A model generated the notes under the pieces. The model did no database searches. It worked only from the letters and a program-made list of their open reading frames with translations, and had not been told where the DNA came from. A stretch of DNA of 64,000 nt, taken from Candidatus Woesearchaeota archaeon. Its GTDB lineage: Archaea; Nanobdellota; Nanobdellia; Woesearchaeales; GW2011-AR4. Where the stretch lies: the NCBI GenBank assembly GCA_016180235.1, contig JACPBQ010000002.1, forward strand, positions 128,206 to 192,205. The letters run 5' to 3'. Shown here one piece after another: positions 31,000-57,436 of the stretch; position 1 is the first letter of the stretch, and the number at the start of each line of letters is the position of its first letter. Both the position numbers and the translations under genes were made by a program.

Positions 31000-31275
31000 A
31001 TGCAAAAAGAGGACCTTAACCATTGCATGCTTATTTTCTATACTTTAAAGTATATCCCGCAGAAAGAAAAAGTAAAGGTCCTGAGAGATCTCAATGGATA
31101 TAAGGAAAAAAAGCAGGGCAAAGAATACCATCATAGCGGCTTGGTGCAGAAAGCCAATGCGGAAAAGCTCGGCTCTAACGTCATTCTGGTCCCAATAGGC
31201 AGTTTCGCTGATTTTCAGAATTTTTTCAGCAAAAGCAATATAAGCATCAGGCTGAAAGAGGTCTTGGTAAAGTGA
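31000..31275 (+). CDS. Small conserved hypothetical protein (91 aa)
   Basis: ORF; GTGA overlap with downstream gene. Confidence 0.6.
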   Translation: MQKEDLNHCMLIFYTLKYIPQKEKVKVLRDLNGYKEKKQGKEYHHSGLVQKANAEKLGSNVILVPIGSFADFQNFFSKSNISIRLKEVLVK

Positions 31276-33362
31276 ATATTAAAAACAAAAGAGGCCAGGC
31301 AGCAGTTTTCATAATTATAGGGCTCATTATCCTGATTACTGCAGGAGTCATATTTTTCATCCAGAGAGAAGAAATAAAGCCTATTGAAAAAGAATCAGGG
31401 GAGCAGCCCCAGTTTGCAGGCCAGGCAGAACTGAAGAATTTTGTTGATAGCTGCCTGCAAAGCTCTGTTTTGCAGGGTTTGCAGATAATGAGCCTGCAAG
31501 GCGGCTATATAGATATTCCTGCTGATTCGAATATCTTGACAGCAGACGGAAATGATATCCCTTACTGGCTCACTGCTGACAGCGTAGCAATACCATCGCT
31601 TGATTTCATGCAAACAGAGCTGGAAAATTATGTTGTGAAAGAGCTTGAATCATGCGTCAGCGGTTTCAAGGATTTTAAAGATCAGGGCTTTGAAGTTAAT
31701 TACAGCAGCATAAAAGCAGATGCAGCCATGGGAAAAGCTGTTGTTGTGAATGTTGATTTCCCGATTATGCTGAAAAAAGAAGGAATAAGCTTTGAAGAAA
31801 AGGATTTTGTGTATACAGTTCCGATAGACATGGAGCTCATACAGAAAACCGCTTCTGGCCTTGCTGCTCTGGAAGACTTCCACACTTACCTTGAGGACCA
31901 TACAAAAAATCTGATTTCATTGTACTCTGGAGTTGACCAGAACAGGCTGCCTCCTTTTTCCCAGTCTACCACAAACCTTAATTGCAATTTTGTCAGCTGG
32001 AGCAAGGAGGAGGTAAAAAACAGATTAAAGAATATCCTTAATTTTAATGTTCCAAACTTAAAAATAGAGGGAACGAACTATAATTTAGCAGGTTCTGATG
32101 CTGTTTATGAAAGCTTCGTTTATGACTTGTTTAATGAAAATTTTCCAAACTTGAAGATTGATTTTATTTATGAAAACAGCTGGGAATTCCTGGCTTTTGA
32201 CATTGTCCCCAGCAGCGGAAATTCATTGATTCCGGAAAAAGTCGTTGGGACAAATATACCCATGCTGCCGCAGATTTGCGTTTTTAAGTATCCTTTCAAG
32301 TATACAATGCAGTATCCAGTTTTAATTAAAATTACTGATTTAAATTCGGCAAAAATAGACCCTGCGGCTGATGTTTATTATGAAAAACAGGGCTTTGCTT
32401 TCCAGTTCCCAATGGTTTCTTACTTATGCGGAAATCAGAACAGGAAATGCGTTGCTGGAAATTTTCCTCAAATTGATGTAACTTCTTTTGCCGTTGGAAA
32501 TACGACTTTACTGCCTCAAACTTTGTTCTGCAAACCAGAGCAGATGATAAGCAATGAAATAACAGTAAAGACTTTTGATTCTTTAACTGCAAATAGTTTA
32601 TCGAATGTTGATGTAAATTATTACTGCGGCAGCTACCAGAATGACTGCTTTATCGGAAGGACCGATGGGAATGGTGTTTTAAAGGCAAAATTCCCGCTAT
32701 GCATTAACGGGCAGATATACTTTGCAAAAGAGGGCTATTCAATTTTAGGCCAGGGCTTGACAACCCATGAAATTCCAAAGTCTGAGCTTGCATATTTCCT
32801 GAATCCGAAGAACAGCCTTAAAGTGGAAATGAAGAAAGTAAGTATTCTTTCATTAGTTCAGGATTATTTTGAAAATAATAAGTTAAATATTGAAAACAGT
32901 TTGCAGGATGTTATTGCTGGAGAGAAAGTTACAATAGTTTCTGATACAGGCTTATTTTACATTTATCCTGATCCTGCAGACAGGACTCTGCAGATTGGCA
33001 CCGGAAACCATAAGTTTGGGCTGCAGTTGACAGCGGAAAATGCAAGTTCGCTTGGATTTCTGAACGCTGATGCTTCGGTATCAAAAGAAGATTTGAGAAA
33101 AAGCAAGGTTGTATTTTATGTCTTTGAGGACAGCAGCACTGACTCTATTTTGAGGGCAGACGGGAATCTGGAAGCCGAGCTGTTGTATTCATGCGGGAAA
33201 AATGCAGACGATAGCTGTAATTTTGATTCATGCAGTTTTGCCGGCATAGACGGCTTAAATATACGGGACTTTAATGATAATTTGGAAACATGCGAAAAAG
33301 CATTTAATATTACGATAGCAAAAGAGCAGTACCGGGATTTAATAAAGCCCGTATTCAGCTGA
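31272..33362 (+). CDS. Locus 1 protein A: pilin-like signal, secreted 696-aa protein
   Basis: 'NKRGQAAVFIIIGLIILITAGVIFF' N-term; paralogous to 38489-40609 and 47927-49816 (FVDSCLQ....GGYI...IPYW). Confidence 0.82.
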   Translation: MNIKNKRGQAAVFIIIGLIILITAGVIFFIQREEIKPIEKESGEQPQFAGQAELKNFVDSCLQSSVLQGLQIMSLQGGYIDIPADSNILTADGNDIPYWLTADSVAIPSLDFMQTELENYVVKELESCVSGFKDFKDQGFEVNYSSIKADAAMGKAVVVNVDFPIMLKKEGISFEEKDFVYTVPIDMELIQKTASGLAALEDFHTYLEDHTKNLISLYSGVDQNRLPPFSQSTTNLNCNFVSWSKEEVKNRLKNILNFNVPNLKIEGTNYNLAGSDAVYESFVYDLFNENFPNLKIDFIYENSWEFLAFDIVPSSGNSLIPEKVVGTNIPMLPQICVFKYPFKYTMQYPVLIKITDLNSAKIDPAADVYYEKQGFAFQFPMVSYLCGNQNRKCVAGNFPQIDVTSFAVGNTTLLPQTLFCKPEQMISNEITVKTFDSLTANSLSNVDVNYYCGSYQNDCFIGRTDGNGVLKAKFPLCINGQIYFAKEGYSILGQGLTTHEIPKSELAYFLNPKNSLKVEMKKVSILSLVQDYFENNKLNIENSLQDVIAGEKVTIVSDTGLFYIYPDPADRTLQIGTGNHKFGLQLTAENASSLGFLNADASVSKEDLRKSKVVFYVFEDSSTDSILRADGNLEAELLYSCGKNADDSCNFDSCSFAGIDGLNIRDFNDNLETCEKAFNITIAKEQYRDLIKPVFS

Positions 33363-33455
33363 ATGGCAAAAAATATGTCCAATATCTTGGACTTAAGTAC
33401 CAAAAATGGGACAAAGGAATAATAAGCAAGCTCAAATCGTCGATAAAAGGCAAAA

Positions 33456-34583
33456 ATGAACAAGATATTAAGAAAAAACATTGCAGTTTTTATGATTGCC
33501 CTGATTGCAACTATGCCTTTCTATGTAAGCAGCGCTTTTGCGCAGGGCAATGTCCAGAATCCTGCACAGAGCTGCATTGAGAAAAACCAGCAAGGGAAGG
33601 ATTTTGTAGAGTTCATGGACAGCGGTCCAATAAAAACCCTGGAAACCGTTGCCAGTACTTTGCATTTTACCTGCACTGCTTGGTCAACAGTGGATGTAGC
33701 AATTAGCATAACTCAGATTCCTCTGGGTTTTGTAAGTGATCCTGCAAACCCAGATCCAGCAGCCCAGGTTACCACTTGCGCCATAGCCCTAAAAACACCT
33801 GGTGTAAACTCTTTTGTCTTAGCAGCCTGTGAAGTTAACGAAGCTGTTAGACACGTAAGGACTGCTTTAGGTGTTGTATTTGACCCTCTTTGCAGCCTGC
33901 AGGAATGCGCTTTCTGCAATTCTAAGCCTGGTGACCTAAGCCCGGCAAAAGGCGTTACAAAAGCTGCTGATTTTGCCGGAGCCAGTCCAGAAACAGTTAA
34001 GAAAATACAGGGTGTGCAAAAATCTTTAGGTGAAACAAAAGACTTCTTCCAGTTATCTCCTTATGACAATATATATGTCGCTATGGCATGCATGTGCCCT
34101 GTTGGAATCCTGTTTAACCTAAGGAAATTAAAAACCATTTACCAGACTAATAACTGCTGCATAGAGCAGGCATGCGCCAACGGTGTTAGCGTTGAAAGCT
34201 GCGACAGGCAGTTTAGCGAAGCTACCTGCATGTATTGGCAAGGCTCTGTTTTCAGCATGCTGATTAAGATTATAATAAGCTTTATTGCAGATTATATAAT
34301 AAAAAATTTCCTGCCCAAAAAGATTGAGGAGCTTATAGGCGCAGGTTTTGCTTACGGACAGGCTATTTTCGCGCTTTTTAATGCCTATAACCATATACAA
34401 AAACTGCAGTCTTCCTTCAAGTGGATGAGCGAAACGTTTTCAGAGCCGGAATGTGATGATTTGGGCTTTGGCAAGATAAGGGATGAAAGGAGAGGGGAAG
34501 CAACATCAAAGTTCTGTACTTTAGTGCAGATAGATCTGAACAATGATGGAAGATTTGACAGAATAGTGCCAAGATGCCCATAA
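33456..34583 (+). CDS. Locus 1 protein B: secreted Cys-motif protein
   Basis: Signal peptide 'IAVFMIALIATMPFYVSSAFAQ'; C-terminal Cys module shared with 40763-43906. Confidence 0.75.
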   Translation: MNKILRKNIAVFMIALIATMPFYVSSAFAQGNVQNPAQSCIEKNQQGKDFVEFMDSGPIKTLETVASTLHFTCTAWSTVDVAISITQIPLGFVSDPANPDPAAQVTTCAIALKTPGVNSFVLAACEVNEAVRHVRTALGVVFDPLCSLQECAFCNSKPGDLSPAKGVTKAADFAGASPETVKKIQGVQKSLGETKDFFQLSPYDNIYVAMACMCPVGILFNLRKLKTIYQTNNCCIEQACANGVSVESCDRQFSEATCMYWQGSVFSMLIKIIISFIADYIIKNFLPKKIEELIGAGFAYGQAIFALFNAYNHIQKLQSSFKWMSETFSEPECDDLGFGKIRDERRGEATSKFCTLVQIDLNNDGRFDRIVPRCP

Positions 34584-34589
34584 TACAAA

Positions 34590-35999: not shown

Positions 36000-36047
36000 A
36001 GTTCTTAAGTTATTAAGCAGAAAAGTTTATATATTTGGTGTAATACG

Positions 36048-36060
36048 TAGGTAATACCTA
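36048..36060. promoter_or_regulatory. Inverted repeat TAGGTAATACCTA, likely antitoxin operator, downstream of TATA-like TTTATATA (36025)
   Basis: Palindrome plus overlapping direct repeat GTAATAC just before the AbrB-like ORF. Confidence 0.55.
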
Positions 36061-36076
36061 AACATTGAGGTTAAAA

Positions 36077-36283
36077 ATGGCAATATCAATAGTAAGGAAA
36101 TCGGGGAACAGCACAGTATTAGTTTTGCCTCCGGAGTTCGTCAGGGAAAGGAAACTAAGGATAGGGGAAACAGTAGAATTTGAAGTATTCAAAAAAACAG
36201 ATTTAAGTAAGCTTTGGGGCATAAGCAGGCATTTGAAAATAGATGCCCAAAAGGCAAAAAATGAACTTAGGAAAGAATGGTAA
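36077..36283 (+). CDS. AbrB/MazE-like antitoxin
   Basis: MAISIVRKSGNSTVLVLPPEFVRERKLRIGETVEFEVF. Confidence 0.78.
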   Translation: MAISIVRKSGNSTVLVLPPEFVRERKLRIGETVEFEVFKKTDLSKLWGISRHLKIDAQKAKNELRKEW

Positions 36284-36645
36284 TTTTTCTTGATACTTAT
36301 GCGATAATAGAGATAGCAATAAGCAGCCCAAACTACAAAAAATATGCTCTGGATTCAAAAGATGCAGTAACTACAGTTTTTAATTTAATGGAAGCGCACT
36401 TTTACTATTTAAAGAATTTTGGCAAAGAAGAAGCAAACAAAACTTATAGTGTTGTAAAGACGTTAGTAATACCTATAGACGATTCTACAATCAAAGAGGC
36501 CAATGAGTTTAAGCTTGCAAACCTAAAAAAACGCTTAAGCTTTGCAGATTGTATTGGTTACTCAACAGCCCTGAAATATAAGGCCAAATTCCTGACAGGG
36601 GACTATCAGTTCAAAGGCATGGAAAATGTGGAGTTTGTCAGATAA
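36277..36645 (+). CDS. PIN-domain (VapC-like) toxin
   Basis: 'VIFLDTYAIIEIA' N-term Asp, conserved Glu 'NLMEAH', C-terminal 'LSFADCIGYSTAL..AKFLTGD'; overlaps antitoxin. Confidence 0.8.
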   Translation: MVIFLDTYAIIEIAISSPNYKKYALDSKDAVTTVFNLMEAHFYYLKNFGKEEANKTYSVVKTLVIPIDDSTIKEANEFKLANLKKRLSFADCIGYSTALKYKAKFLTGDYQFKGMENVEFVR

Positions 36646-36663: not shown

Positions 36664-37806
36664 TTAAATCAGCTCAAATAAGCTCTGGTTAATCAAGCTT
36701 TCATAGAAAGCAACATCAGTTATGTTCAATTTGCTTAATTGCTTTAGGCTCTCGCAGCTCTGCTTCAGATACTGGTTAGTTACCTTATCGCACACAGTAT
36801 AATCTTTCTTGTCAATGACAAAATTCATGTAGCAGGAATCTTTCCTGCTGTCCTTGCTTATTTCCTCGCATACCTCGCTCCTTCCGACTATTTTTGCAAC
36901 ATTGCTCAGGCAGACATCCTTTGTCCTTTCATCAGCTATTTTGGCGCAGTAAGCCCTGTCGCCTAAAACCTCGCCGATTTTATTGAAGCACAGGTCTCTT
37001 GAAGTCTGCAATTCCAGCTGATTGCACAATCTTTCCGCTTCCTGCCTGTTTTGCCCTGCTATCTGCTCGACTTTCTCCAGGGTTTCAAAAGTCGTAATTG
37101 CAGAATTTCCTGGAGTTGTTTCTTCATCTGGCACAGGTTCTTCTCCAGTTTCTTCAGGAGTTTCGGCAACTGGCTCTTCTGTAATTTCTTCTTCTATTGG
37201 CTCATCACCAACCGACCCTTCAGCAACCTGCCCCACTATCTTTACAGGCAATGTTGCAACAGCCCTCTGGCCATTATAAGTCGCTATAGCCCTTAAGACA
37301 TAATCCCCAGCCGCAGCATCAGGAGGAACTTGCATGTTAATCTGATTTGAGCCTTTTGTTTCTATGGCCCTTGTCTCTTCCTTGAACGTAACAACATCAT
37401 TTGTCTTTATATTGATCAATTCATACTTCAGGCTGACATCATACCTCCTTGCAGAGCCTAAATTATCAAGTTCGGAAATAAACGTTATATCTTCACCGCT
37501 ATTAACCGTTGTCTTTACGCTTTCCAGGTTTAAATCAAGCAGTGTTCCAGGCGCTTTGCTGCCGGCAAAATTAAAAAATACGAAAGAGACAGCCACTATC
37601 CCGATAAAAATTGCTGCAATTCCTATTAAGGCAGCGGGAGAAAAATGTATTATATGCCTTACTTCAGGGCTGGAAATATACCTTATAGCTTCATCAATAT
37701 CTGCAGGAGAATAGCCATATTTTAAAAGATAATTCCTTATTGTCTGTACATCAAAGCCCCTTTTTATCTGCTCTTGTATGTAATCAACAAGCTTCGTATT
37801 TGCCAT
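36664..37806 (-). CDS. Membrane-anchored protein: UBA-like N-term, TM, CARDB-like domain, C-terminal Cys repeats
   Basis: 'LVDYIQEQIKRGFDVQTIRNYLLKYGYSPADIDEAI'; TM 'AALIGIAAIFIGIVAVSFVFF'; Cys repeats 'RAYCAKIADERTKDVCLSNVAKIVGRSEVCEEI'. Confidence 0.72.
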   Translation of the reverse strand: MANTKLVDYIQEQIKRGFDVQTIRNYLLKYGYSPADIDEAIRYISSPEVRHIIHFSPAALIGIAAIFIGIVAVSFVFFNFAGSKAPGTLLDLNLESVKTTVNSGEDITFISELDNLGSARRYDVSLKYELINIKTNDVVTFKEETRAIETKGSNQINMQVPPDAAAGDYVLRAIATYNGQRAVATLPVKIVGQVAEGSVGDEPIEEEITEEPVAETPEETGEEPVPDEETTPGNSAITTFETLEKVEQIAGQNRQEAERLCNQLELQTSRDLCFNKIGEVLGDRAYCAKIADERTKDVCLSNVAKIVGRSEVCEEISKDSRKDSCYMNFVIDKKDYTVCDKVTNQYLKQSCESLKQLSKLNITDVAFYESLINQSLFELI

Positions 37807-38487: not shown

Positions 38488-38488
38488 G

Positions 38489-40609
38489 ATGGGAACAAAG
38501 GCGCAGGTTTCAATATTCATCATTTTTGGGATCGTAATTTTAGCGGCAGCTGCAGTTGTGTTTTACATAAATACATCCGGGCAGAAAGAGGAGATTGCTC
38601 CCGGAGTTTTTATTTCAACTCAGGAAATACCAACTCAGCTTGACCCTGTAAGCAGTTTTGTCACGCAATGCCTTGATGATGTGGCTGTCAGCGGCCTGAA
38701 GCTGATAGGCGAGCATGGAGGCTATATAGACACCAACAGCCCTGAACTCACAAAGCAGAATTTCAAAATAAGCGATGACCCGACTGAAAGCGATGCTGTT
38801 GCTTTTGCACCAGGAAGCGAATTTAAAATCCCGTACTGGTGGTATCTGGAAAGCAATAATAATTGCGAGGGGACATGCAGGTTTTCAAGCAAAAGACCGG
38901 AATTAAGGGATGATGATGGCTCAATAGAAAAGCAACTCAACAGGTATATAGAAAAAAATATGCCGGAGTGCATAAATAATTTTGAAAGCTTAACCGGGCA
39001 GGGATTTGAAATCAGCGGATTAAGCGCAATAAAAGCCAATGCAAAAGTTGCGGAAAGCGATGTTGTCGTAGTCATGGACTATAGATTAAGCGCAAAAAAG
39101 GAAGGCATTACATCCACTTTGGACCAGTTCTTTGTGAGGGTTCCGGTTGACCTGGAAAAAATCTACAATCTTGCCACAGAAATAACAAACTTGCAGCAGA
39201 AATACCGCTTCCTCGAAAGGCAGACTATGAACCTTGTGTCTTCTTTCTCGTCAGTCGATAGCAATAAGCTGCCTCCGGTTACAGACATGAGGTTTGAGTT
39301 CGGAAGCACTACAAGCTGGAGGAAATCGGATGTAAAAAACAGTATCATGCAGGTACTGGCAAGCTACATCCCCATGTTCCAGGTAGATGGCACAAGGAAC
39401 TTCAATCGCGACTTTTACTCTTCGGAATTAAAGCAGAGGCTTTATGACAGCATGATTGTTCCCGTTGCAAATCAGGAATACAACAATTTGGATGTGACAT
39501 TCAATTATCTTGACTTCTGGCCGATATATTTCAGCATTAATTGCAACGGGGAAATTTGCCAGCCAGAATCAGCTTCCTCGAACCTGCTGGCCCTTATAGG
39601 GCTGCAAAGGTATGATTTTGCATACGATGTTTCATTTCCGGCATTAGTCGGGGTTTTTGACCAGGACGCATTGAACGGACAGGGCTATAATTTCAATTTT
39701 TTCCTGGAAGCCAATGTAAGGAACAACCGCGAGCTGGAGTCAGAGTTTGTGCCTTTGCAGACAGCCGATATTCCTGCCGCATCTTTCCTCTGCGATTTAA
39801 GCAACAGGAACAGCGCTGAAGTGACAATCAAGGTGATTGATGCAGTTGAAGCAAAGCCGCTGGATGGTGTAAGCGTTACTTTAGGAGTTGCAGGAGAAAA
39901 CTGCTACATCGGAAGCACAAACGAGAATGGCACTTTGGTTGCAAAATTTCCAGCCGGGACAGCAGGCGCACTCATTAGCTTATTGAAGCCTGACTATATC
40001 TCAAAATCGCAGTTGTTTGACGCGAGCCCTGACAGGAAACTTTCTCTGGAAGCGAAGCTTGACCCTGTCAAAGAAAAGAAGATAACAATAAAGAAAAAGC
40101 TGCTCGAAAAAACAAGCAGAGGCTGGGAGTTTACAAACAAAATTTCTGACTTAAAGCCGGATGAGGAGGCATTTGTGACGCTGACAAGATTAAGCCCGCT
40201 TACAGAGGAGGATTTTGATGCTGTTGCAAGCATAAAGGGGCCCAACGAGGAGCAGATCAGGCTGGCTCCGGGAAAATATGAGGTTAATATAAACACTTTC
40301 CTGAGGGAAAACATAAGGATACCTGAAAAGAAAGTGAGGAAAAAAACCGGTTTGTTCTCGGAAGAGGAATTTACCATCCCCGGATTTGAGTTTAATGCAA
40401 ACAATCCTTATCCTTCCGGAGGCTTAAGGATGAATGTTACGATAACAGAAGAGGACCTAAAGAAAGACACCATCACATTTTTTGCGGTAAGCCCGGCTTT
40501 GGAGAATGTTCCTGAGCAGCAAAGGTCAATTGATGATTTGAATCAGGCGGCAAATATTGACGAGTATTCAAGAGTTTTTGCAGCATTGTTGGCTCCAGTA
40601 TTCCAATAA
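38489..40609 (+). CDS. Locus 2 protein A: pilin-like signal, secreted 706-aa protein
   Basis: 'GTKAQVSIFIIFGIVILAAAAVVFYI'; 'FVTQCLDDVAVSGLKLIGEHGGYID...IPYWWY'. Confidence 0.82.
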   Translation: MGTKAQVSIFIIFGIVILAAAAVVFYINTSGQKEEIAPGVFISTQEIPTQLDPVSSFVTQCLDDVAVSGLKLIGEHGGYIDTNSPELTKQNFKISDDPTESDAVAFAPGSEFKIPYWWYLESNNNCEGTCRFSSKRPELRDDDGSIEKQLNRYIEKNMPECINNFESLTGQGFEISGLSAIKANAKVAESDVVVVMDYRLSAKKEGITSTLDQFFVRVPVDLEKIYNLATEITNLQQKYRFLERQTMNLVSSFSSVDSNKLPPVTDMRFEFGSTTSWRKSDVKNSIMQVLASYIPMFQVDGTRNFNRDFYSSELKQRLYDSMIVPVANQEYNNLDVTFNYLDFWPIYFSINCNGEICQPESASSNLLALIGLQRYDFAYDVSFPALVGVFDQDALNGQGYNFNFFLEANVRNNRELESEFVPLQTADIPAASFLCDLSNRNSAEVTIKVIDAVEAKPLDGVSVTLGVAGENCYIGSTNENGTLVAKFPAGTAGALISLLKPDYISKSQLFDASPDRKLSLEAKLDPVKEKKITIKKKLLEKTSRGWEFTNKISDLKPDEEAFVTLTRLSPLTEEDFDAVASIKGPNEEQIRLAPGKYEVNINTFLRENIRIPEKKVRKKTGLFSEEEFTIPGFEFNANNPYPSGGLRMNVTITEEDLKKDTITFFAVSPALENVPEQQRSIDDLNQAANIDEYSRVFAALLAPVFQ

Positions 40610-40762: not shown

Positions 40763-43700
40763 ATGATTAAAATGGCCGGAAATCACAAGCAAAAAATTGC
40801 AGTTTTAATGGTCTTATTAGTTATTATGCTGCCTGTTTATTCTTCTCTGGCATTTGCCGACCTGTCGAAGATAGAGGCAAGGGGAAAGGATAATGTAAAC
40901 AACTACATAAGGGAAAGTGATTTCATAACATTCAAGGCTACTGCAACAGTTCCCGGAGACACTGCAATAACCGCAAGCCAGGTGCTTTTGGGCTCTAACC
41001 TGCAGTTTGACAGCTGCAAGGCGGGAATAGACGGCTTCGACTGCACATTAAGGTTCCCTGGAAACGGGACGACGTTGTTTGATGCAAAAGCAATCCCGTA
41101 CACAATAACCTTAAAAAATGATGCAGGAAATGTTGTGCAGACAAAAACAGACAGCATTTTCGTCGATAACCTTCCTCCGCAGATAACTTCTTTCACTGTC
41201 GACCAGGCCCTTATAAGCTCGGGCATCGTGCGGTTCAGCTTTGATGTTTTGGATAATGCCTGCGCCGCCTCAAGCTGCGCCGGAAAATGCTCCGGAATTA
41301 AAAGTGTGGAGCTCTCTGACACCAAAAGCAGCTACAAGGACACCATCACTTTCAACACGGATTCGTGCACAGTCTCCAGGACTTTTGAAACATCTGCATT
41401 GCCATTCTCAGAAGGCCAGCATGTTATACTGGCAAAGGCATTTGACAGGTTTGACCAAGTATCAACAGCAGCATCAGCAACATTTCAATTTGACAAAAGC
41501 GCCCCTTTCATCGACTTGAACACATTAAGGGTTGTTGATGGCCTGGATATAGACTTAAGCTCTTTTGGAGCTGCTCCTGTGCCGGTAACGGTAAAGATTG
41601 ACATAAAGGATACCGATCTTAACAAAAATACTGTGTTTGCTGATTTAAGCGAGCTTAATAAAAACGCCAACCTTGGGAATGTACAGGCTTCCTGCGGGGA
41701 AACTCAAAACAGCATAACGGCATGCTCATGGAATATTGCTCTTGCTCCTGACGGTCCCGGACTAAAGAAAGTTACAATACTTGCTTCCGATATTTCCGGA
41801 AATAATGCAAAGACCGAAATAACAAAAAGTTTTGGATTGGATAGTGCAGGGCCTGTTGTCCTTTCTTTGGCCAGTGCACAGGTTGTGGATGGCCAGAACT
41901 TTGCTAAATTAAGCAATAATACCTTTGTTGCAACTTTGAGGGATGATGCTGGGGTAAAGGCTTCTGACATAAAGCTGCATGCGGATACTGTTGTTAAGGA
42001 AGCAGATTCGTGCTCCAAAGCAGTCGATATATGGCAATGCACCTGGAGCAATATCAATTTCCTGAATCCGGGAAAAATAAAAGTATCAATAGATACTGAT
42101 TCAAAAGACAGGCTTGGCAACCTAGTTACAGAGAAATTCGAGAAAGAAGTTATTGTTGATTCCATAAAGCCAAAATTAGTCCAGATTGTTGTAAAAGGCA
42201 TAGGCGGAAGCCAGGAAGCTCTTGAAGAGTTTATAACAACTGGAGACAAGCTGCAGGTCCAGGCAGTCATTGAGGATGATAGTCTGCAGAAAGCTTCTGC
42301 TGATTTCTCCAGGTTTATATTCAATGCAAGGGATGTGAATGCGGATACTTGCACAAAAACCGGAGCAAAAACATTTGTATGCTCATGGACAACATCATCT
42401 ATAGATATAGAGAGTTTTATTGATGATTTCATAAGGCTTCAGTTTACCGATATTGCGGGCAATACTCTGGAAGCCAAGGAGCCTCTAAAGGTCCTTGGGG
42501 TTACAGGAGGCGAGACCCCTGACTTCTGGCAAAGCTCGGTCAGATGCTCTCCGTCTTTGCTTGATAGGGAAACGCTGCCATTGATAAGCCAAAGGGCATT
42601 TTGCCTGGTTTCCCTAACTCCAAAGTCATTGGCAGGCAGCGCATTTGAAGATATAGAACCGGTAAGCGCAACACTTGGGGAATGCAGTGGCGATATGAGC
42701 TTTGTTGATTCTGTCAAGCTGGAAAACAACCAGTTCAGCAAGGAGCCATTGCTCAGGATAAATTTCAAAAGGCAGGATGCAAGGGTTGACAAGATAGATC
42801 TTCTTTGCCCTGTTGACATAATATCCAGGAAAGGCAATAATATCGTTACAACTCCGGAAAAAGAGAATGTAGACATTAATTTCCAGCTCTACAACCAGCC
42901 ATTGGGAGAAGTCTCTGCTAACGTACAGAAGAAGATTGATGATGCAGTTGAGGATTCCGAAGGCATTTTGGATTATGTTGCCTGGATGAAAACTGTTTTC
43001 TTTTATGGGGAAAGGCTATGTAATGTTGGGAATATCGTTGTAAATATTGTCGCTTTATATAAGGCAGTAGGCATATTTTGGGCAGATTTTGATCTGTTAA
43101 CTACAGGAACCCCTGCAAATGCAGCAGCCAAAGCTGAAAGGATATCCTGGGACACTTTGACTGAAGAAGCAAGGCAGGAAACTCTCGGAAAATTTCCATT
43201 AATCACAAAAGCATGCAACCTTGTCAACTGTAAATCCGTTGTAGATAAGAATGCAATAACTTTCGATTTTGAAGGTCCTGAATCTATTTTAGGGAAATGG
43301 AGGCAGGGAGGAAAAGACATACTAGGAACCTTAGATGTTGGCGGCATTGTAAGCAAATATGTCGGTGAAAAAGGAAAAGAGTCAGATCCAACCAGGTTCA
43401 TGAATCCAAAAGACAGCATAGTGGTTGCATCTTTGACTGCATGCATTCCCGGCATTATCTACGGCCTGGACAAATACAGGCAAATTCAATGCATGTATGC
43501 TGATTGCTTGCAAACAGGAGTTGGCAAGCAGGGATTGCCTGTGTTTGCATGCGAGGACCAGAAGAGCTATGCAACCTGCAAATATGTTGTTGGGGAAGTA
43601 TTCAAAGTAATACCAATAACAGCGGCATTTGATTATTACGCAAATCTGATAAAATCAACTTTAGCCAATCCGTTCAAGATATTGGGTGCAGGAATAGCAG

Positions 43701-47926: not shown

Positions 47927-49816
47927 TTGAAAAATAAAATGTCCAAAAAAAGAGGTCAGGCAACTATTTTTATGGTAATGGCGATAATCATATTGCTTCT
48001 TGGATCTTTTTTCTTCTTTGCCCAAAGGGCTTCTCTGGAAAAAACCGAATTGATAAGCCCTGAAACAGCGCCTGTAAAAAGCTTCATAGACACGTGCATA
48101 ACAGATGTTGCGAGGCAGGGAATAACAATTTTAGGATTGAATGGGGGATATATAAATTTCCCGGATGAGATAGAAAGAAGCCCAAGGAGCTACCTGCAGC
48201 TTGGCCCCGTAAGCAGCATAAAAAACCCATACTGGTGGTATGACGGCATTGAAAGCGTCCCGTCAGAAAGCTTTATTGCAGGCCAGATAGAGGGCTATAT
48301 TGCCTCAAACCTTGACAGCTGCATAAGCGGCTTTACAGCCTTTAACCAGCTTGATTTAAAGCAAAAAGGAAAGCTTGAGGTAAAGGTAACGCTTAACGAG
48401 AATGATGTGACTGTAGATGTGAATTATCCCCTGGAGCTTGCAAACAAGCTTAACAGCACCACAATAATGCTGGAAAATTTTAAGGAAACCCTGCCAATCA
48501 GGCTGAAGAAGGCCTATGAGACGGCAAAAGACATCTATGAGTCTGAAAAAAGGAGTTTTTTCCTGGAGTTCAAGACAACAGACCTTATATCCATGGATGA
48601 GAGCATACCCACAACTGGCATAGAAACATCCTGCAGGGAGAAAACATGGCGCGTTGACCGGGTGCAGGAAAAGCTGAAGAGGCTCCTCAATGTAAACCTG
48701 CCTTATATCAACATAGTTAATTCTGACTTTAATGAAAATGCCTATGTGCCAAACCCATTCGGGGAAGACACCTATAAGGACTCTTACTATGAGAAGCACT
48801 ATAAGTGGCAGGTATCGGATAAGGATTATGCTGGTTTGAAGGTTTCATTCGCCTACGAGGAAAGCTGGCCAATGCAGTTTAACGCAAGGCCGAGCAGCAA
48901 TGGCATAATGAAATCAAATGCCCAGAAAAGCCAGGGCTTCCTCGATTTCTTCTGCCTGCATATATGGCACTTTACCTATGATGCGGTATATCCTGTAAGG
49001 ATTACCATAACAGACATTGCTCCTGAATCCGAGCCCTACCAGTTTAACTTTGCATTCAAGGTAAGCGTTGACCACAATCAGCCAAGGAGGGAAAATTTTG
49101 CATCGACATTATTCGAGCAGCCGGATTTAGGCAATCAGGAAGAATACTGCAACGATGTTGTAAATGACATTACAGTATACACCGTGGAAAACACAACAGT
49201 ACAGAAGGATGTGGCGCATGTCAACCTCACATTCGTCTGCGGGGTATTTAGCTGCAATATGGGGGAAACAGACTGGCTCAGCTTTGGCGCTGCAGCAGGC
49301 CTTACCAAAGCATTCCCTTACTGTGTAAACGGGATCCTTAGAGGCAGCAGGGAGGGGTTTGAGGATGGCCAGATGTTCATGCGCACAGAAACTCCGGGTA
49401 CATACATCCTTCACCTTAAGCCCGTAAAGGAATTCCAGTATTATGATATCGTTAAGCATGACTTTGACAATCCCATTGCAGAAAGCGGATTGAGGGAAAA
49501 TGAGAGAATATCAATAACAATAAAATCCCTGCAGGATAATTTTGAATCTTTTGGGGTTTATCCCATTGAAAGGGATTTCCCGATAAGGCTGCTCAATGAT
49601 AACCAGGAATATGAAGTGACGATCTACCTGTCAGACGAAGACAGCATCATTGGCGGCTACAAGGGAATATGGAAAGTTTCCCCTGAGCAGGTGGCAAGCG
49701 CAAAAAAAATAAGATTCCACGTCCTGGAAAAGCAAGGAAGCGAAGATGAAGCAGCGTTATTTGTTGCAGGGCTTGATTCATACTCCAAAAAAGTTCCGCA
49801 GCCGGAGCTGGTATAG
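47927..49816 (+). CDS. Locus 3 protein A: pilin-like signal, secreted ~628-aa protein
   Basis: 'KKRGQATIFMVMAIIILLLGSFFFFA'; 'FIDTCITDVARQGITILGLNGGYINF...NPYWWY'. Confidence 0.82.
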   Translation: MKNKMSKKRGQATIFMVMAIIILLLGSFFFFAQRASLEKTELISPETAPVKSFIDTCITDVARQGITILGLNGGYINFPDEIERSPRSYLQLGPVSSIKNPYWWYDGIESVPSESFIAGQIEGYIASNLDSCISGFTAFNQLDLKQKGKLEVKVTLNENDVTVDVNYPLELANKLNSTTIMLENFKETLPIRLKKAYETAKDIYESEKRSFFLEFKTTDLISMDESIPTTGIETSCREKTWRVDRVQEKLKRLLNVNLPYINIVNSDFNENAYVPNPFGEDTYKDSYYEKHYKWQVSDKDYAGLKVSFAYEESWPMQFNARPSSNGIMKSNAQKSQGFLDFFCLHIWHFTYDAVYPVRITITDIAPESEPYQFNFAFKVSVDHNQPRRENFASTLFEQPDLGNQEEYCNDVVNDITVYTVENTTVQKDVAHVNLTFVCGVFSCNMGETDWLSFGAAAGLTKAFPYCVNGILRGSREGFEDGQMFMRTETPGTYILHLKPVKEFQYYDIVKHDFDNPIAESGLRENERISITIKSLQDNFESFGVYPIERDFPIRLLNDNQEYEVTIYLSDEDSIIGGYKGIWKVSPEQVASAKKIRFHVLEKQGSEDEAALFVAGLDSYSKKVPQPELV

Positions 49817-49817
49817 G

Positions 49818-52800
49818 ATGAAATCAAAAGGTACATTAATCCAGTTTATTGCATTGCTTTTGTTAGAGATAATAATATTGTATCCTGTAAGCTTTGTGCA
49901 TGCCTTGGACATTTCAAATGTTCAGATAACGGACGTAAGCTCCAGTTCTGCAAGGATAAAGTGGTTTACGGATGAGGTTGCGGATGGCAAGGTAAAGTAC
50001 GGCCCGACAAAAGACCTTGGGTTTACTTCCAGGCACAGCACTTTTATTTTTGAGCACAGCCAGCTGCTGCAGGGCCTTGATTCGGAAAAGACCTATTTCC
50101 TTGAGATAGAGTCATCAAACGTAAATGGAGACATTAAAGCAGACAACAACAACGGCCAGATGTATTCTTTCACCACAAAAGACATCACTCCTCCTGCAAA
50201 AGTGGAAGGGCTTGCAGTAACAGGCAAGACCAAAAGCTCCATAACGATGGCATGGCAGGCATCAGGCGCCCAGGACTTAAGCCGCTATAATATTTTCAGG
50301 AACAGCATAAGGATTGCAAATTCAACAGGCACGACATTCACAGACACAGGCCTTAATCCGGGATCGTCTTTTTCCTATAAAGTATCGGCAGTTGATGCGG
50401 CAGGAAATGAAGGTGCGCAGTCTGACACCGTGATTGTATCAACGGAAGCATCAGGCCTTTCCAGCCCGGTGATTAGCGATGTGGATATAGCGGAAATAAC
50501 TGACACAAGCGCAACAATAACGTGGCTGACAAGCAAAAACAGCACCTCGATTGTTTTCTTTGGGGCTGACCAGGCACTCGATAGGGTGGAAGAGATAAAG
50601 CAGCCGGCAAGGAACCATTCCGTAACTCTTGAAGATCTCGAAAAAGGCGCTTCTTACAGTTTTATTGCAGGCTCATGCGATAATGACAATAACTGCGCAA
50701 ATTCTTCGTTATCAACCTTTAAAGCCGGGCTTGGCGCGATAGCCCCGTCAATCAATGCAACAATCCCCATGTTTGTAAACAAAAAAGAGATTGGCATAGC
50801 AGGGTCGATAGAGCCTTTTTCGTCAGTTAAGCTTTTTGTAAATGACTTGAACTTCCCTGCAAGGGCATTGGACAGCAAGGAAACTTCAAAAGGCACATTT
50901 GAATTCCAGGATGTGCAGCTGCAGAAGGAGAATGTTATAAAGCTTCTTGCCACGGACAAGGCAGGCAATAAGAATGAGGCCATTTTCAGGGTAAGCGTCG
51001 ATACGGAAAATCCCGTTGTTATTATTGACCAGGTCCCGGGAATGACATCAAAGAAGAATTTGACAATTATAGGAACAGTAGACGAGCCTGTCTTCATAAA
51101 TTTCTTCCTGAGGTTCGGCTCGAAAGAAAAGCCGGAGAAGATAACAGGGCTTAAGGGCGCTGCAAAAAACAATTCGGTAACGCTGGAATGGAATGAGACA
51201 AAAGACAGGGATTTCAGCCATTATGTGGTCTACAGGAAAGATGTCGGGCCGATAGCGGTTGCAAAACCGGCATCATACGATACATATACGGACTTGCTCG
51301 TCAACAAGGGGCAGGAATACTCCTATTGGATTACCGCAATAGACAAATTCGGCAAGGAAAGCGACAAGTCTGATGCTGTTGCAGTAAAAGTCACTGAAGG
51401 AAGGCAGGATATACCAAAGCCGCAGCCTATAGACAGCCTCATCATAGAAAAGCCTGAGTTAAATATCAGCGTGAATAATTCTTTTTCAGGGTCATTAAAG
51501 CTTGAAAAAGATGGCGATTACACCCTGTTGATGGAGGTAATTGACAGGGCAAATAATAGGGTTACCGTCCAGAGAACATTGACATTGGACACAAAAAAAC
51601 CCGACATAAAGATTACAAATCCCCCGTCAGGCACGATGATATTTGAAAACTATGCAAATGAGATTGATATCAAAGGCATAACAGAGCCAAATGCAAAGGT
51701 TCATTTATACATAGAAAGGACTCCTTTGGGGCCGTTAAATAGATCAGCAGATATAGCTGGCTTGCCTGACGACATATTCAATATTGATGACTCTAAGCTT
51801 GACGCTGACTGCGCATTAAAGATTGGCGGGAAAAATTTCTGCCCGGAATCAGCTGATTTTTCCACCACAGCGGACAGCGCAGGCAATTTTGAGTTTGACA
51901 ATGTGGATATAACAAGCATTGCAGCTGCGGGCTTAAGCATAGAGCAGGTTCCCGGAACCCGGCTTATGGAAGAGATCAGGCCGGAAACAACGAAAACCTC
52001 AAGGCTTATTTTTATAGCGACTGACCCAGTGGGATTAAGAAATGCAAAAGAGCATACGGTAAGGGTAGGTACATGCTGGTCGGGGAACCAGAGCTGGGAC
52101 CTTATCCCATTGTCAGAATTCCAGAGCCCGACATTCCTCAGCCCCCAAAGGCTTGCTGAAAACAAGGAAAGCATTTATTTCTTCTTTAATTATTCCTATA
52201 TCGGCCGCGGCAAAGACGGGAAAATAGACAGCGTCTCTCTGCAAAAAGCCTGCTCAGGCACAGAAGTTTTAGGCGATAAGAGGTTTAACACAAGCTGCAA
52301 GATACTCCCATCGGGAGGCTTCTCGACTGCAGTGAATCCCGAAGGCACTGTGACATACACCCAGATTAAGCTGAACAGGGTCGAGAATATGGACAAGTTC
52401 CTGCAGAACGACTGGAATGACTTCTTCAATTCTTTGAGCAATGAACTGGCATTCCCCCTCAAGTTTACCATAAGGTACAGGCATACAGTAGACGGGAAAG
52501 AGATTGTTGAGACACAGACAACATGCCAGGAAGTGAGTTATGTCATGGACAACAGCATAATAGACCCAAGAGAGATTCTTCCGGACTGGCTTTTGTATGA
52601 TTTCGTTGATTTCCTGCAGAACTCAATAAAGGCAGTTAATGATATCAACGAGCAGCTTAGCAAAGTAGTTGATTTTGTGACTGTGGGCTGCGTTTCAAGC
52701 TTCGTTTTGAGGATACCGGTGCAATTTTACAGGCGCCTTATAACCTTCAGCGAGGAAAAGATATTCCAGCTTAAGGATATAAGCAAAAGCATCATCCCGG

Positions 52801-55800
52801 GGTCCAACAACCTTATAAAATTCAATGTTAAGACTGAGCAGGACCAGGAATACTGCAATGCTGTTGCAAACAGCGTCAAAACCCAGTACAAGCTAGGCGC
52901 AGAAAAAAATGCATTATTTGGCTTAAAGCTGAAATATTTCAGCGATAATGACTTGAAAAGATGCTTCCCGGAGGTTGCGGGCATATGGGATACTGAGGCA
53001 TCATTATACACTGCATACAGGTACACTTGCGACAGGATTTTCGGGCATCAGACTCCATCAGCATGGACTGAAAACCTGGATGATGAGAGGATATACCAGA
53101 GGATTCTGGAAGGCAGCCAATGCCCGAATGATCAAAGTGTTTATGGAAGGCCGATACAGGCTGTCAAATGCAGCGAGGCTGCCCCGCAATTCTTCGCAAG
53201 GCAGTTTTTTGCAGTGCAGAACCAGGATCGCTTTGGAGTGGATGATATCTGCTTTGTAGTCCCTATCAGCAACATAGGCACCGGGCAATTAGGCAGCGCC
53301 CAAAGAGGCAATCAGCTGTTCCAGTTAGGCAAGCTCGTTGAAGGGACTCAAAATATTTATGAGATTACAGGAGTAACCCAAATAGGCTATTCTACCGAAG
53401 TAAGGTATGCAATAAAGCAGACAGAAAAAAGCTTCCTCACAAACAGGCCGGAAACATGCGAGCAGTTATGCACTGGAAGCGCGCCTGGCTTGCAGAAAGA
53501 TACTGCTATAATGGACGGTAAAACTTATAACACTTACCCTATAAAAGACCTGAAAAAAGATCCAAGAAACCCGACCGATCCTAATAAGAAAGCTATTCCT
53601 GTATGTGAAACAGCTGCACGGTGCAATGAATGGGCTGCGCAGGCTGCACAGACTGGCCAAAAGGCAGAGATTGTACTTTCTGATAATTCCGGCAAAGAAG
53701 TGGTAGTAAATATAGACACTGCAAAAAGGCAGGGCTATACAAGCGACTGCTTTCCCCCGAAAACTGAGTTTTCAGATGTAAGCGACAATCCCCAGCAAAG
53801 GTATGAATGCTGCTGCTTAAACACAAAAAGCCAAACTGCTCCAACAGTATATTATCTTTATGATGATTTCAACAGGTACGAGGATGACAAAGGCGCAAAG
53901 CAGAGTTCATTCCAATCAAAGTCAGGTGAGGGAGTTCCTGCTGGTTTTAATGACATGCAGTGGAGCTACAGGTACTGGAAAGAAGGGTATATTACTTTAT
54001 CCAAACAGACTACACAATCAGGAAGGAATATCCAGCACAACCAGTACAATCCAAACAGGTACATAGAAGGGAGGGATTATCCTGCATGTTTTGGCCAGAA
54101 TAATTACCTGTATGATGGCGGCTTGCTCAGCCCCGGGCCTGCAGAAGGCGATGTTGGAAAGTTGGTCATGATAGATTCCAGGCAGCAGTTTGAAAGCGCA
54201 TTTTTCTGCGCCAATATCGCTGGCATACAGAACCGGCTTGTCATGCTGAATAATATGCAAAGCGCCCTGGCAAGCTGCCTCATAGATGTCAGGCAAACAG
54301 GGACCTCGGATGCTGCTGCATGCAAGGAATTCTTCACAAGATATGTATGCTCTTCAGTATGGCAGGCAATTAACTTCGCCCAAAGCTTGTTTACAGACTC
54401 ATGCTCATTATCGCCTATCGCGCTGGATGCAAATGCAACTGAAGATTATGCTGCTACAATAAGCGACGGCTTTAAGGCTGTGACGCAAAGCATTACAGAT
54501 TCCCAATCAGAGCTTGCAGGTGAATATGGAAATGCTGAATTGAATAATTTATTGGGGACGGGTACAGGAGAGATCGCAAGGAAAGTCTGCTTGGCAGCAT
54601 TCGGCTATGACTGGGACTTGAGCCTGCAGAATATTGTTGATGCTGCTTACTCCCAATCATTTGAAACCCTTGTGCAAAAAACAACAGGAACAAGAGAGTA
54701 TTTGACGATAGATCCGACAAGCGGCCAGGCAAGATACGATTACAGGTCTTCATGGATAATAAATCCGGGATGTGAAATTGAAAGCTATAGGGTGGAATTG
54801 GCATGCGTAAGCAGGAATGAATTGAATAGGGAAGGAGCCTTTGTTGATCCTTTATCCTCTATTGGAGTAGCTTCCAGAGGTATAAGATGCGATGCAGTAG
54901 GAAGTCCCGATGGGAATAACTGTGACTGCCTGAATCTTGACAAGGAGCAGACCAGGACATTTTTCACATCAAAAGGCAAATTGCTGCAGAACAAGTTTGT
55001 GCAGCAGGCCCAGGACGAGATTGTCTCCTCGCTATACAGGTATGACCACCTCAAGTTTACTTTAAGGCCAAGCCCTAAGCTGAAAGGCAATTTGAGAAGC
55101 ACCTGCTTCCCGCCGGGGCATGAGGACGGGGTATTCTATTTCCCGTTAAGCGACAAGACAGCCAGGGACATAGCTGCATGCAAGCTGGAGCCTATATCGG
55201 GAGTTTTCCAATGCACTGGTGCTCTTGACTTCTGGAGCAAGAAAGGGCTGGCTAATATAGTGGATGTCACAATAAACGGGGAAAAGCCAAAAGACAATTC
55301 ATTCACAGTATTCAGGGGAGATCCTCTAATATTGACACCGACAATTTTCAAGACTCCTGGTTCTCCGAGCAAATGTTTGGTGATGCAGCTTGAGAAGCAG
55401 GGAGTAGGGATAAATTATCCAAAGGTAGAGACCATAAACGTTGATGGCACATACCAGTACTCCCCTATAACGCTGGATGAGAATGTGCAGCCAGTCCAGA
55501 ATCTGGGGATTTTGCCGTCAGCACGATTTGATGGATGCGAATCAGTAGACAAGGCATCAAGGTTGTGCCAGGATATAATGTCAAGGCAAAGGCCAACTAT
55601 CGGGGTTTTGCAGAGAGGAAATATTCAGGATATTGATTTGGCTGTAACTTTCATTGATGAAAAACCCGAAGATGGAAGGATCGACACAAGTGAAAGCAGC
55701 CAGGATATAATGCAGGTAAGTATATTGGGAAGCGCTGTTGATTCAAAAGTATTGGGAAAAGGTGGTTGGTATGATGAAAGCAGGAAAAAGCCTGTTATCG

Positions 55801-56591
55801 ACAAGCCGGAATACAACATAAAACTGCAGATAAACAGCGTTCCTCCTTTTACATCTGAAGTCAAATCAGCGACGTATACGCAGCTGATACCTTCAATAAC
55901 CGGCAGTCAGACCGGCATAAGCTCAACTGGCATAAATACTTTTACTAATCTAAATACCCTCTCTGACAACATATGGCGCTTAAGGTTAAGCCTGTTTGAA
56001 GCAGATGAGAATACTTTCCTCTGCCAAAGGTATAATGCAGGTGAATTAGTGCAGTACCAGGGGACAAAGCAGGAAAAAACATACACAATAAGGGTTGCAG
56101 GCCAAAGCCTTGATGCAGACGCTCCCAGGGTAACGGTAAATGTTTTTCCTGCAGAAATTAAGCAAACAGGCGAAACAGCAAGATTGACTGTTGAGGCAAC
56201 TGATGAAACAAAGCTGGGAAAGATCAATTTTGAGTTGACAAAGCCCGGAGCATTTAGATCCAATTGGAATAATGTTAACAGCCAGCTTGAAAGCCTTTGC
56301 AGGTCGGATGCCTTGCAGGGGAGCGGGGACAGCAAAGTATGCCTGATAGATGTTGACGGCAGCAAGCTTGATGCTGATATACCCGGGACATACAGGGTTA
56401 CGGTAACAGTGCCTGATGAGGATAAAATATCCCATCTTACAACAAGGGAAGCGACAATCGAGGTCCTATGCGGCCCTTCATCTGACAATTCCTATGGGGT
56501 GTGCATGCAGGGAGGAAGGTGTAGCAATGTATTGAAAGATGTAGGCAACTGCCAGACAGGATTTGAGTGCTGCAGAAGGTTCCAGGGTTGA
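49818..56591 (+). CDS. Locus 3 giant secreted protein (~2257 aa) with fibronectin-III-like N-term and Cys modules
   Basis: 'MKSKGTLIQFIALLLLEIIILYPVSFVHA' signal; 'DITPPAKVEGLAVTGKTKSSITMAWQ' FnIII; Cys-rich C-term 'CGPSSDNSYGVCMQGGRCSNVLKDVGNCQTGFECCRRFQG'. Confidence 0.82.
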   Translation: MKSKGTLIQFIALLLLEIIILYPVSFVHALDISNVQITDVSSSSARIKWFTDEVADGKVKYGPTKDLGFTSRHSTFIFEHSQLLQGLDSEKTYFLEIESSNVNGDIKADNNNGQMYSFTTKDITPPAKVEGLAVTGKTKSSITMAWQASGAQDLSRYNIFRNSIRIANSTGTTFTDTGLNPGSSFSYKVSAVDAAGNEGAQSDTVIVSTEASGLSSPVISDVDIAEITDTSATITWLTSKNSTSIVFFGADQALDRVEEIKQPARNHSVTLEDLEKGASYSFIAGSCDNDNNCANSSLSTFKAGLGAIAPSINATIPMFVNKKEIGIAGSIEPFSSVKLFVNDLNFPARALDSKETSKGTFEFQDVQLQKENVIKLLATDKAGNKNEAIFRVSVDTENPVVIIDQVPGMTSKKNLTIIGTVDEPVFINFFLRFGSKEKPEKITGLKGAAKNNSVTLEWNETKDRDFSHYVVYRKDVGPIAVAKPASYDTYTDLLVNKGQEYSYWITAIDKFGKESDKSDAVAVKVTEGRQDIPKPQPIDSLIIEKPELNISVNNSFSGSLKLEKDGDYTLLMEVIDRANNRVTVQRTLTLDTKKPDIKITNPPSGTMIFENYANEIDIKGITEPNAKVHLYIERTPLGPLNRSADIAGLPDDIFNIDDSKLDADCALKIGGKNFCPESADFSTTADSAGNFEFDNVDITSIAAAGLSIEQVPGTRLMEEIRPETTKTSRLIFIATDPVGLRNAKEHTVRVGTCWSGNQSWDLIPLSEFQSPTFLSPQRLAENKESIYFFFNYSYIGRGKDGKIDSVSLQKACSGTEVLGDKRFNTSCKILPSGGFSTAVNPEGTVTYTQIKLNRVENMDKFLQNDWNDFFNSLSNELAFPLKFTIRYRHTVDGKEIVETQTTCQEVSYVMDNSIIDPREILPDWLLYDFVDFLQNSIKAVNDINEQLSKVVDFVTVGCVSSFVLRIPVQFYRRLITFSEEKIFQLKDISKSIIPGSNNLIKFNVKTEQDQEYCNAVANSVKTQYKLGAEKNALFGLKLKYFSDNDLKRCFPEVAGIWDTEASLYTAYRYTCDRIFGHQTPSAWTENLDDERIYQRILEGSQCPNDQSVYGRPIQAVKCSEAAPQFFARQFFAVQNQDRFGVDDICFVVPISNIGTGQLGSAQRGNQLFQLGKLVEGTQNIYEITGVTQIGYSTEVRYAIKQTEKSFLTNRPETCEQLCTGSAPGLQKDTAIMDGKTYNTYPIKDLKKDPRNPTDPNKKAIPVCETAARCNEWAAQAAQTGQKAEIVLSDNSGKEVVVNIDTAKRQGYTSDCFPPKTEFSDVSDNPQQRYECCCLNTKSQTAPTVYYLYDDFNRYEDDKGAKQSSFQSKSGEGVPAGFNDMQWSYRYWKEGYITLSKQTTQSGRNIQHNQYNPNRYIEGRDYPACFGQNNYLYDGGLLSPGPAEGDVGKLVMIDSRQQFESAFFCANIAGIQNRLVMLNNMQSALASCLIDVRQTGTSDAAACKEFFTRYVCSSVWQAINFAQSLFTDSCSLSPIALDANATEDYAATISDGFKAVTQSITDSQSELAGEYGNAELNNLLGTGTGEIARKVCLAAFGYDWDLSLQNIVDAAYSQSFETLVQKTTGTREYLTIDPTSGQARYDYRSSWIINPGCEIESYRVELACVSRNELNREGAFVDPLSSIGVASRGIRCDAVGSPDGNNCDCLNLDKEQTRTFFTSKGKLLQNKFVQQAQDEIVSSLYRYDHLKFTLRPSPKLKGNLRSTCFPPGHEDGVFYFPLSDKTARDIAACKLEPISGVFQCTGALDFWSKKGLANIVDVTINGEKPKDNSFTVFRGDPLILTPTIFKTPGSPSKCLVMQLEKQGVGINYPKVETINVDGTYQYSPITLDENVQPVQNLGILPSARFDGCESVDKASRLCQDIMSRQRPTIGVLQRGNIQDIDLAVTFIDEKPEDGRIDTSESSQDIMQVSILGSAVDSKVLGKGGWYDESRKKPVIDKPEYNIKLQINSVPPFTSEVKSATYTQLIPSITGSQTGISSTGINTFTNLNTLSDNIWRLRLSLFEADENTFLCQRYNAGELVQYQGTKQEKTYTIRVAGQSLDADAPRVTVNVFPAEIKQTGETARLTVEATDETKLGKINFELTKPGAFRSNWNNVNSQLESLCRSDALQGSGDSKVCLIDVDGSKLDADIPGTYRVTVTVPDEDKISHLTTREATIEVLCGPSSDNSYGVCMQGGRCSNVLKDVGNCQTGFECCRRFQG

Positions 56592-56593
56592 AA

Positions 56594-57436
56594 ATGGCCT
56601 CTGAAAATAAAATTATAAGCTCGCTGAAAGAGTCATTTTTAATAATCAAAAAAAACAAGAGGATTTTTTTGCTGGTTTTTATTCTTCAGGTTTTATTCAT
56701 TTCATTTGTAATTGCGGCCAATGCATACTACGTGCCGCGGATATTGCAGAGCATACAGGATGCAATAGGCTATGCGGAAGCGCTGAATATAAATCCCGAA
56801 GCTGGGGATATCGGCATATTGCAGCAGAAAAGCCCCCTCGGCGAAGATCCATTATTGATAAGCAGAAATTACAGCCTAATTATTAAAAATTCCATTAGTT
56901 TATTGGTTCTTATTTTTTTGATATTTGCCGTTGTCAATGGCCTGGCATGGTATTTTGCATCCAATATAGCGGAAAAAAGGAAAAAATTGTTTTCATTGAA
57001 GGGCATTTTTCCTTATATGCTGAAATTTTTCATTATGTCGGTTTTTTTGTCATTTTTCATCTATTTATTGGCCTATAACCTTGTTAATATTGCATTCAGC
57101 GGCTACCTTTCAGTAAAACCTATGGATTTTATTCCGTTATTGTTGATAGTTGTAATGGCCATATATTTCATCCATATTTCGGTCCCGATACTTGATAAAA
57201 TCAGGCTTAAAGAAACGCCAAAAAAAATAATTCGATTGGGAGCAAAAAAATTTGTTCCGGTAATAATTTCCTATTTGATAATTTTAATTTTTATAATGGC
57301 CTCTTTGTTTTTGATTTTTTATTTTATAGAACTAAATCTGTTTTTATTGCTGGCTTCTGTCTTATTGTCAATTTTCGTCTTTGCCTGGAGCAAAATCTTT
57401 TTTGCTGTTATTATCAGGAAATTAAGCGGCTTGTGA
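56594..57436 (+). CDS. Locus 3 protein D: polytopic membrane protein
   Basis: Start MASENKI after SD-like context; 5-6 TMs. Confidence 0.72.
   Translation: MASENKIISSLKESFLIIKKNKRIFLLVFILQVLFISFVIAANAYYVPRILQSIQDAIGYAEALNINPEAGDIGILQQKSPLGEDPLLISRNYSLIIKNSISLLVLIFLIFAVVNGLAWYFASNIAEKRKKLFSLKGIFPYMLKFFIMSVFLSFFIYLLAYNLVNIAFSGYLSVKPMDFIPLLLIVVMAIYFIHISVPILDKIRLKETPKKIIRLGAKKFVPVIISYLIILIFIMASLFLIFYFIELNLFLLLASVLLSIFVFAWSKIFFAVIIRKLSGL

Follow-up and report, generated by a model that had tools for sequence, protein, structure and literature searches.

A pilin-like protein paired with large secreted modular proteins: a candidate surface module present in three copies in a woesearchaeote

What do three successive runs of surface-protein genes in one woesearchaeal genome encode, and do they represent one system? 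The genes lie in the window, the 64,000-nt stretch of DNA analysed here (contig C5 of a 1.04-Mb woesearchaeote genome, G000), on the + strand at positions 31272-57436, in the order A1-B1-C1, A2-B2-C2-D2, and A3-B3-D3. All open reading frames (ORFs) lie where the initial annotation of this DNA had placed them. That annotation had recognized a recurring A-B-(C)-D unit and had described the third locus as an A, a giant secreted protein, and a D; the unit is confirmed, and the giant is instead the B of locus 3. Each locus is one copy of a single A-B-(C)-D surface module. The core domain that defines B (see below) occurs exactly three times in the genome, each time inside the window. The closest relative in the named genome collection is one locus, from a Candidatus Woesearchaeota MAG, with an A1 identity of 73%.

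A1 (31272-33362), A2 (38489-40609), and A3 (47927-49816), all on the + strand, are homologous over most of their length, as BLAST (E values of 2e-51 for A1-A2, 3e-48 for A1-A3, and 4e-33 for A2-A3) and alignment both indicate, in agreement with the earlier proposal that they form one family. The motifs quoted for that proposal are real: among 44 long A proteins, the Gln that follows [RK][GA] and the Gly pair of GGYI are invariant or nearly so. Each A protein has one transmembrane (TM) segment and a pilin-like signal, with expected cleavage sites G8/Q9 in A1, where an extracellular region follows, A5/Q6 in A2, and G10/Q11 in A3. A Gln followed by a hydrophobic helix, a class III-type arrangement, is present in 108 of 112 A-family proteins; of these 108, [RK] is found at position −2 in 104, [GAS] at −1 in 103, [ST] at +3 in 93, and [FY] at +5 in 105. 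The resulting class III-type prepilin signal consensus, [RK][GAS]-Q-x-[ST]-x-[FY], is a sequence motif only. Gln at +1 within a QxSxE motif is the mark of the archaeal EppA/DUF361 type (PMC2910488). Glu5 is absent from A, being replaced by Phe or Tyr in 105/108, which fits a tip subunit only. The suggestion that A is a pilin-like, possibly tip-located protein is favoured by this motif, by the loss of Glu5, and by the presence in the genome of a prepilin peptidase (PF01478, C5:112990, E 4.6e-15) and of T2SSE ATPases (including PF00437 at C2:61776, E 2.6e-34); evidence for a pilin fold did not emerge.

An AlphaFold model of A2, computed from a five-sequence alignment, is poor (mean pLDDT 50). 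In this low-confidence model, residues 441-528 (39809-40072, + strand) resemble domains of the transthyretin/CnaB type (best hit with Z 11.8 and rmsd 1.7 over 80 residues), and the SlaB S-layer anchor matches the same domain with Z 10.6; the fold matches cover these residues only, and a common fold by itself shows no function. Sequence-profile searches of A against solved structures returned no meaningful relative.

Short A proteins (about 250-440 aa, consisting of the N-domain only) occur elsewhere in these genomes, and 16 of 17 directly precede another protein with a hydrophobic N-terminus, so that the combination of an A with a secreted partner looks general for the A family. On contig C9 of the window's own genome (L117:746-9305), a 420-aa A-family protein is encoded between two very Cys-rich secreted proteins, the first 1677 aa long, with TSP3 repeats and 82 Cys, and the second 747 aa long, with 41 Cys. 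Two relatives contain genes broken into two ORFs, an A at L057:9918-12516 and a B at L056:9212-17121, each a possible frameshift or assembly error in the MAG.

The B proteins of the window differ greatly in size and share one domain. B1 (33456-34583, + strand) is a minimal, secreted, Cys-rich B; B2 (40763-43906, + strand) has a signal peptide, Ig-like repeats with paired Cys, and the core domain; and the giant of locus 3 (49746-56591, + strand; 2281 aa) has an FN3/Ig-like stalk, the core domain, and a Cys-rich C-terminal region. The common core domain, about 82 residues long, is located at residues 200-281 of B1 (34053-34298), residues 880-962 of B2 (43400-43648), and residues 1476-1555 of the giant (54171-54410), all on the + strand. 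In profile comparisons, B2 and the giant are collinear at 98.5% probability (E 3e-15), and B2 and B1 match at 98.2%; the match to B2, together with the common core domain, identifies the giant as B3. Across the 77 core-bearing B proteins collected, which range from 375 aa (B1) to 2,840 aa, the core has three invariant Cys, with a fourth in 69/77. As listed, both the giant (49746) and D3 (56567) begin inside the preceding gene; judged from the sequence, translation more probably starts at the in-frame ATGs 49818 and 56594.

Pfam and NCBIfam searches of A, B, C, and D gave, above cut-off, only FN3/Ig-type domains in the giant, and A, C, D, and the B core belong to no named protein family. A B2 profile compared with solved structures found no meaningful relative, and the AlphaFold model of B1 is unusable (pLDDT 41).

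C1 (34590-35999, + strand) is a membrane protein with a Pro-rich linker, and C2 (43907-46513, + strand) has a TM anchor, a linker, and a conserved C-terminal domain at 45695-46510. The initial annotation had grouped the two through, among other features, a KIT.YAV motif. Homology between the two is weak, with one similar stretch of about 32 residues (E 0.0016); the motif is juxtamembrane and unspecific. We rejected it as proof of homology: it is only about twofold enriched after N-terminal TM segments and is seen on unrelated proteins. The more distinctive feature is the C-terminal domain of about 260 aa, found in C2, shared by the C proteins of the order (25 members), and doubtful in an orthologue of C1 (E 0.0056). 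This domain is fused to B in some relatives, clearly in L051 (E 8e-45) and L106 (E 4e-48) and more weakly in L079 (E 3e-4) and L100 (E 4e-4), which argues that B and C act jointly. A TM segment followed by an (I/L)TG(x)A/V motif also recurs in unrelated surface proteins at several loci (for example L044:12045-14507 and L064:4597-4989); the motif occurs in 18 of 513 windows after TM segments, about twice its frequency in internal windows (p 0.01), and is possibly a membrane-proximal signal.

D2 (46574-47329) and D3 (56567-57436, likely start 56594), both on the + strand, are homologous: they have six hydrophobic segments each, and each matches the family HMM of the other, in line with the common TM layout noted earlier. 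Their proposed role as a membrane platform finds no such support: D shows no likeness to T2SSF or to any Pfam or transporter family, so that a T2SSF-like platform was rejected as a candidate, and sequence-profile comparison of D with solved structures gave no meaningful relative. Several modules elsewhere, such as L083-L088, have no recognized D nearby.

Several other genes of the window accompany the three loci. An accessory 91-aa ORF (31000-31275, + strand) lies directly upstream of A1 and is kept in two relatives (G001 and G004). Between loci 1 and 2, at 36065-36645, a small AbrB-like ORF is followed by a PIN ORF (PF01850, E 2e-8), as in a VapBC-type toxin-antitoxin pair. The − strand at 36664-37806 encodes a protein of 380 aa that has a helical domain at its N-terminus and a single TM segment; its place beside A2, on the opposite strand, is kept in the window's family (L040, L042, L045, L046, and L071), and it lies beside A in L100. 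Further upstream, at 17894-23893 on the − strand, lies the gene for a secreted protein of 1999 aa, probably another surface giant, in which a lamin-tail domain is combined with many Ig-like domains.

The pairing of A with B extends far beyond the window. A-family proteins were found in 55/59 relatives. Among 141 genomes of the class, 64 have a long A and 61 have the core; 61 have both, three have A only, none has the core only, and 77 have neither (Fisher p 8e-37, a figure that ignores relatedness). In the three A-only genomes, A lies near a contig end or is only a fragment. Of 80 cores, 76 have a long A within 9 kb on the same strand, and for the other four, A and the core are on different contigs. 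Viewed from A, a B is found beside 85 of 89 long A genes (as the next gene in 76, as the second in 3, and upstream in 6); the remaining four lie at a contig or locus edge or adjoin a cut-off gene. The spacing from A to B has a median of −4, with a 4-bp overlap in 32/76 pairs, typical of translational coupling. The association anticipated by the initial annotation is therefore found across A homologues, where it is strict for B and frequent for D, and the A-B association is beyond reasonable doubt.

The core is present in 150 of 194 genomes sampled across the phylum, and even a genome of only 0.6 Mb, with a completeness of 98% (G045), retains the module. Outside the window's order, each of the 46 positive genomes has exactly one core; within the order there are one to three copies, mostly two, with three in the window's genus. 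Gene order follows the same division: outside the order, a single A-B is accompanied by D in many cases; inside it, the arrangement is [A2-B2-C-D2][A3-B3-D3], contiguous or split, with orthologues of A2 order-wide; and A1-B1-C1 is found only in the nearest relatives, G001 and G004. A tree built from 89 long A proteins places A3 (26/27) as the sister group of the single-copy A from other orders (21/22), with support 0.99; A2 forms its own group (35/36 plus one A3), and A1 forms a separate small clade. The tree indicates that locus 3 is orthologous to the module of other genomes, that locus 2 is an old paralogue, and that locus 1 is a restricted extra copy.

Domains found in B proteins of relatives point to a function. 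A domain of the SLT lytic transglycosylase and/or M23 peptidase type lies in the B frame in 14 of 43 single-locus genomes, and B proteins with SLT are 1205-2731 aa long; another B carries a GDSL hydrolase and a 3D domain. SLT also occurs in one C protein from the family to which the window belongs (G010, E 3e-25), and two short A proteins have partners that carry it. The location of SLT in B varies from residue 377 to residue 2320, so that repeated gain is probable. The SLT copies inspected retain the catalytic Glu and the GLMQ-type motif, and M23 retains HxxxD/HxH. The same Pfam searches of four archaeal control genomes found no SLT or M23. The proposal that B is a cargo or adhesin is strengthened and made more specific by the core domain and by these hydrolases. 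In the window itself, Pfam found no hydrolase domain in the A-D proteins, and SLT was absent from B1 and B2 (E up to 1) and from the giant (E up to 0.1), so a function in this organism would have to be drawn from its relatives. Murein is not known from these archaea, and the wall of bacteria would thus be the natural substrate.

A second conserved run was seen in the window's own genome (contig C9, L116:5009-13859) and at L128 and L131. Here small one-TM proteins, several with pilin-like starts, surround an SLT protein of about 560 aa (with Amidase_2 as well in L131), in what looks like another undescribed murein-active pilin-like operon.

Assembly genes are seldom linked to the module. Pfam found no T2SSE or T2SSF among the locus genes of the window. 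In one genome (G107, L087), a pilus operon with T2SSE and two T2SSF lies about 100 bp from an A-B pair, and this is the sole convincing case; a T2SSE within about 8 kb in G041 and G038 is close to chance expectation, and linkage to pilus operons as a rule was rejected.

These data are compatible with a model in which A is a pilin-like carrier and B is a giant modular effector or adhesin aimed at bacterial partners, a reading to which we give about an even chance of being right; on the domain evidence, the A-B module is probably a device for attaching to or attacking bacteria. In this model, A would be made as a class III precursor, with a short basic leader cut before the conserved Gln, and mature A would comprise a hydrophobic helix and an extracellular A-specific N-domain, to which long A proteins would add the transthyretin/CnaB-like domain. 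Because Glu5 is missing in nearly every homologue, A would not form the filament shaft and would probably cap or prime a type IV-like filament; it may otherwise stay in the membrane as a held tip complex. B would be exported via an ordinary signal peptide and fold into a disulfide-rich stalk and core, and A would hold it through the core. The variable parts of B, which in many relatives include murein hydrolases, may serve as adhesion or effector modules, with C as a membrane-tethered helper of B and D as a six-TM partner. With this module, the archaeon would make contact with a bacterial partner or prey and open its wall locally.

The data can also be read without a filament, with A as a plain docking or folding partner anchored at its N-terminus and the A-B-C-D set as a static surface coat or S-layer-associated receptor complex. 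The lack of assembly genes at the locus, the single TM segment of each A, and the near-universal presence of the module, which suits a structural part, agree with such a coat, and Ig/FN3-rich proteins such as B and transthyretin-like domains such as that of A, with its match to SlaB, are common in coats. However, [RK][GAS]Qx[ST]x[FY] is far more conserved than an anchor would require, and one or two copies with variable enzyme modules are ill-suited to an abundant coat protein; we regard a static coat as somewhat unlikely. A dedicated export system, in which A would act as pseudopilin, D as channel or platform, and B as released substrate, is distinctly improbable. Such a system would agree with the many loci in which D follows B or C, and SLT and M23 would suit free secreted enzymes, but B has its own Sec-type signal peptide, D resembles neither T2SSF nor any transporter family, and several modules have no recognized D nearby.

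A further question is whether bacteria are the target at all: the hydrolase domains might bind without any activity, or they might be directed at the envelope of the archaeon itself. That these archaea are not known to contain murein, and that the domain's place differs among proteins, could be taken in this sense; yet retention of the catalytic residues in SLT and M23, and gain at differing positions, argue for a selected activity, and bacteria-killing murein hydrolases have been described from archaea (PMC12352652). We consider inert or self-directed domains unlikely. The preferred reading, a pilin-like A carrying a B aimed at bacteria, can be extended, more tentatively and at somewhat less than an even chance, to a phylum-wide DPANN contact apparatus of an entirely new kind, in which a pilin-derived A would display a disulfide-rich giant B via its core, duplicated and specialized in the window's order, to breach bacterial walls. 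If so, these organisms would usually associate with bacteria and not with archaea. The module, which about three in four of the genomes sampled contain and in which murein hydrolases recur, supplies concrete genes and domains for testing bacteria as partners of Woesearchaeota and Pacearchaeota.

The finding is real and not ordinary, and it is partly known. Fam00969 comprises giant extracellular murein-transglycosylase proteins of up to 3,000 aa from Woesearchaeota and Pacearchaeota, proposed to act in contact with bacterial walls (Castelle et al. 2021, PMC8204110), and Vigneron et al. 2022 (PMC9723730) and a 2025 study of archaeal murein hydrolases (PMC12352652) point the same way. The B proteins of relatives are likewise giant and extracellular with a murein transglycosylase domain, and B very probably includes fam00969, as C possibly does. 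The passages on fam00969 (PMC8204110) mention no pilin-like partner, Cys core, gene order, or duplications; in the open-access article texts searched, we found no description of the pilin-like partner, the core domain, the A-B-C-D order, or the duplications. The label "undescribed" given in the initial annotation thus does not hold for the B-like giants, and the A partner, the core, and the operon do appear undescribed. Known giant transglycosylases are now placed in an operon with a dedicated pilin-like partner.

Compared with established systems, the module combines familiar traits in a different way. Type 4 filament tips are capped by a subunit without Glu5, and in diderms the tip carries the large modular effector PilY1 (PMC10191384); the A-B module likewise co-encodes a pilin-like protein without Glu5 and a large modular secreted effector, but searches found no sequence homology to minor pilins or PilY1, and there are no assembly genes at the locus. 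With archaeal class III/DUF361 (EppA-type) pilins, A shares the basic leader, G/A, Q at +1, S/T at +3, and the hydrophobic helix; it differs in having Phe or Tyr for Glu at +5, a length of 250-800 aa, and no Pfam match. The N-terminal similarity of A to TadE/G of Flp/Tad systems (PF13400) is weak (E 0.018 in one A member, 0.16 in A3) and below cut-off (12.8 bits against 22.3), and there is no Tad operon at the locus. Finally, modular archaeal peptidoglycan hydrolases (PMC12352652) also bring murein hydrolase domains, including M23, to murein-free archaea, with Nanoarchaeota prominent among them; those were investigated as stand-alone modular enzymes, whereas in the A-B system the hydrolase domains are modules of a conserved surface apparatus.
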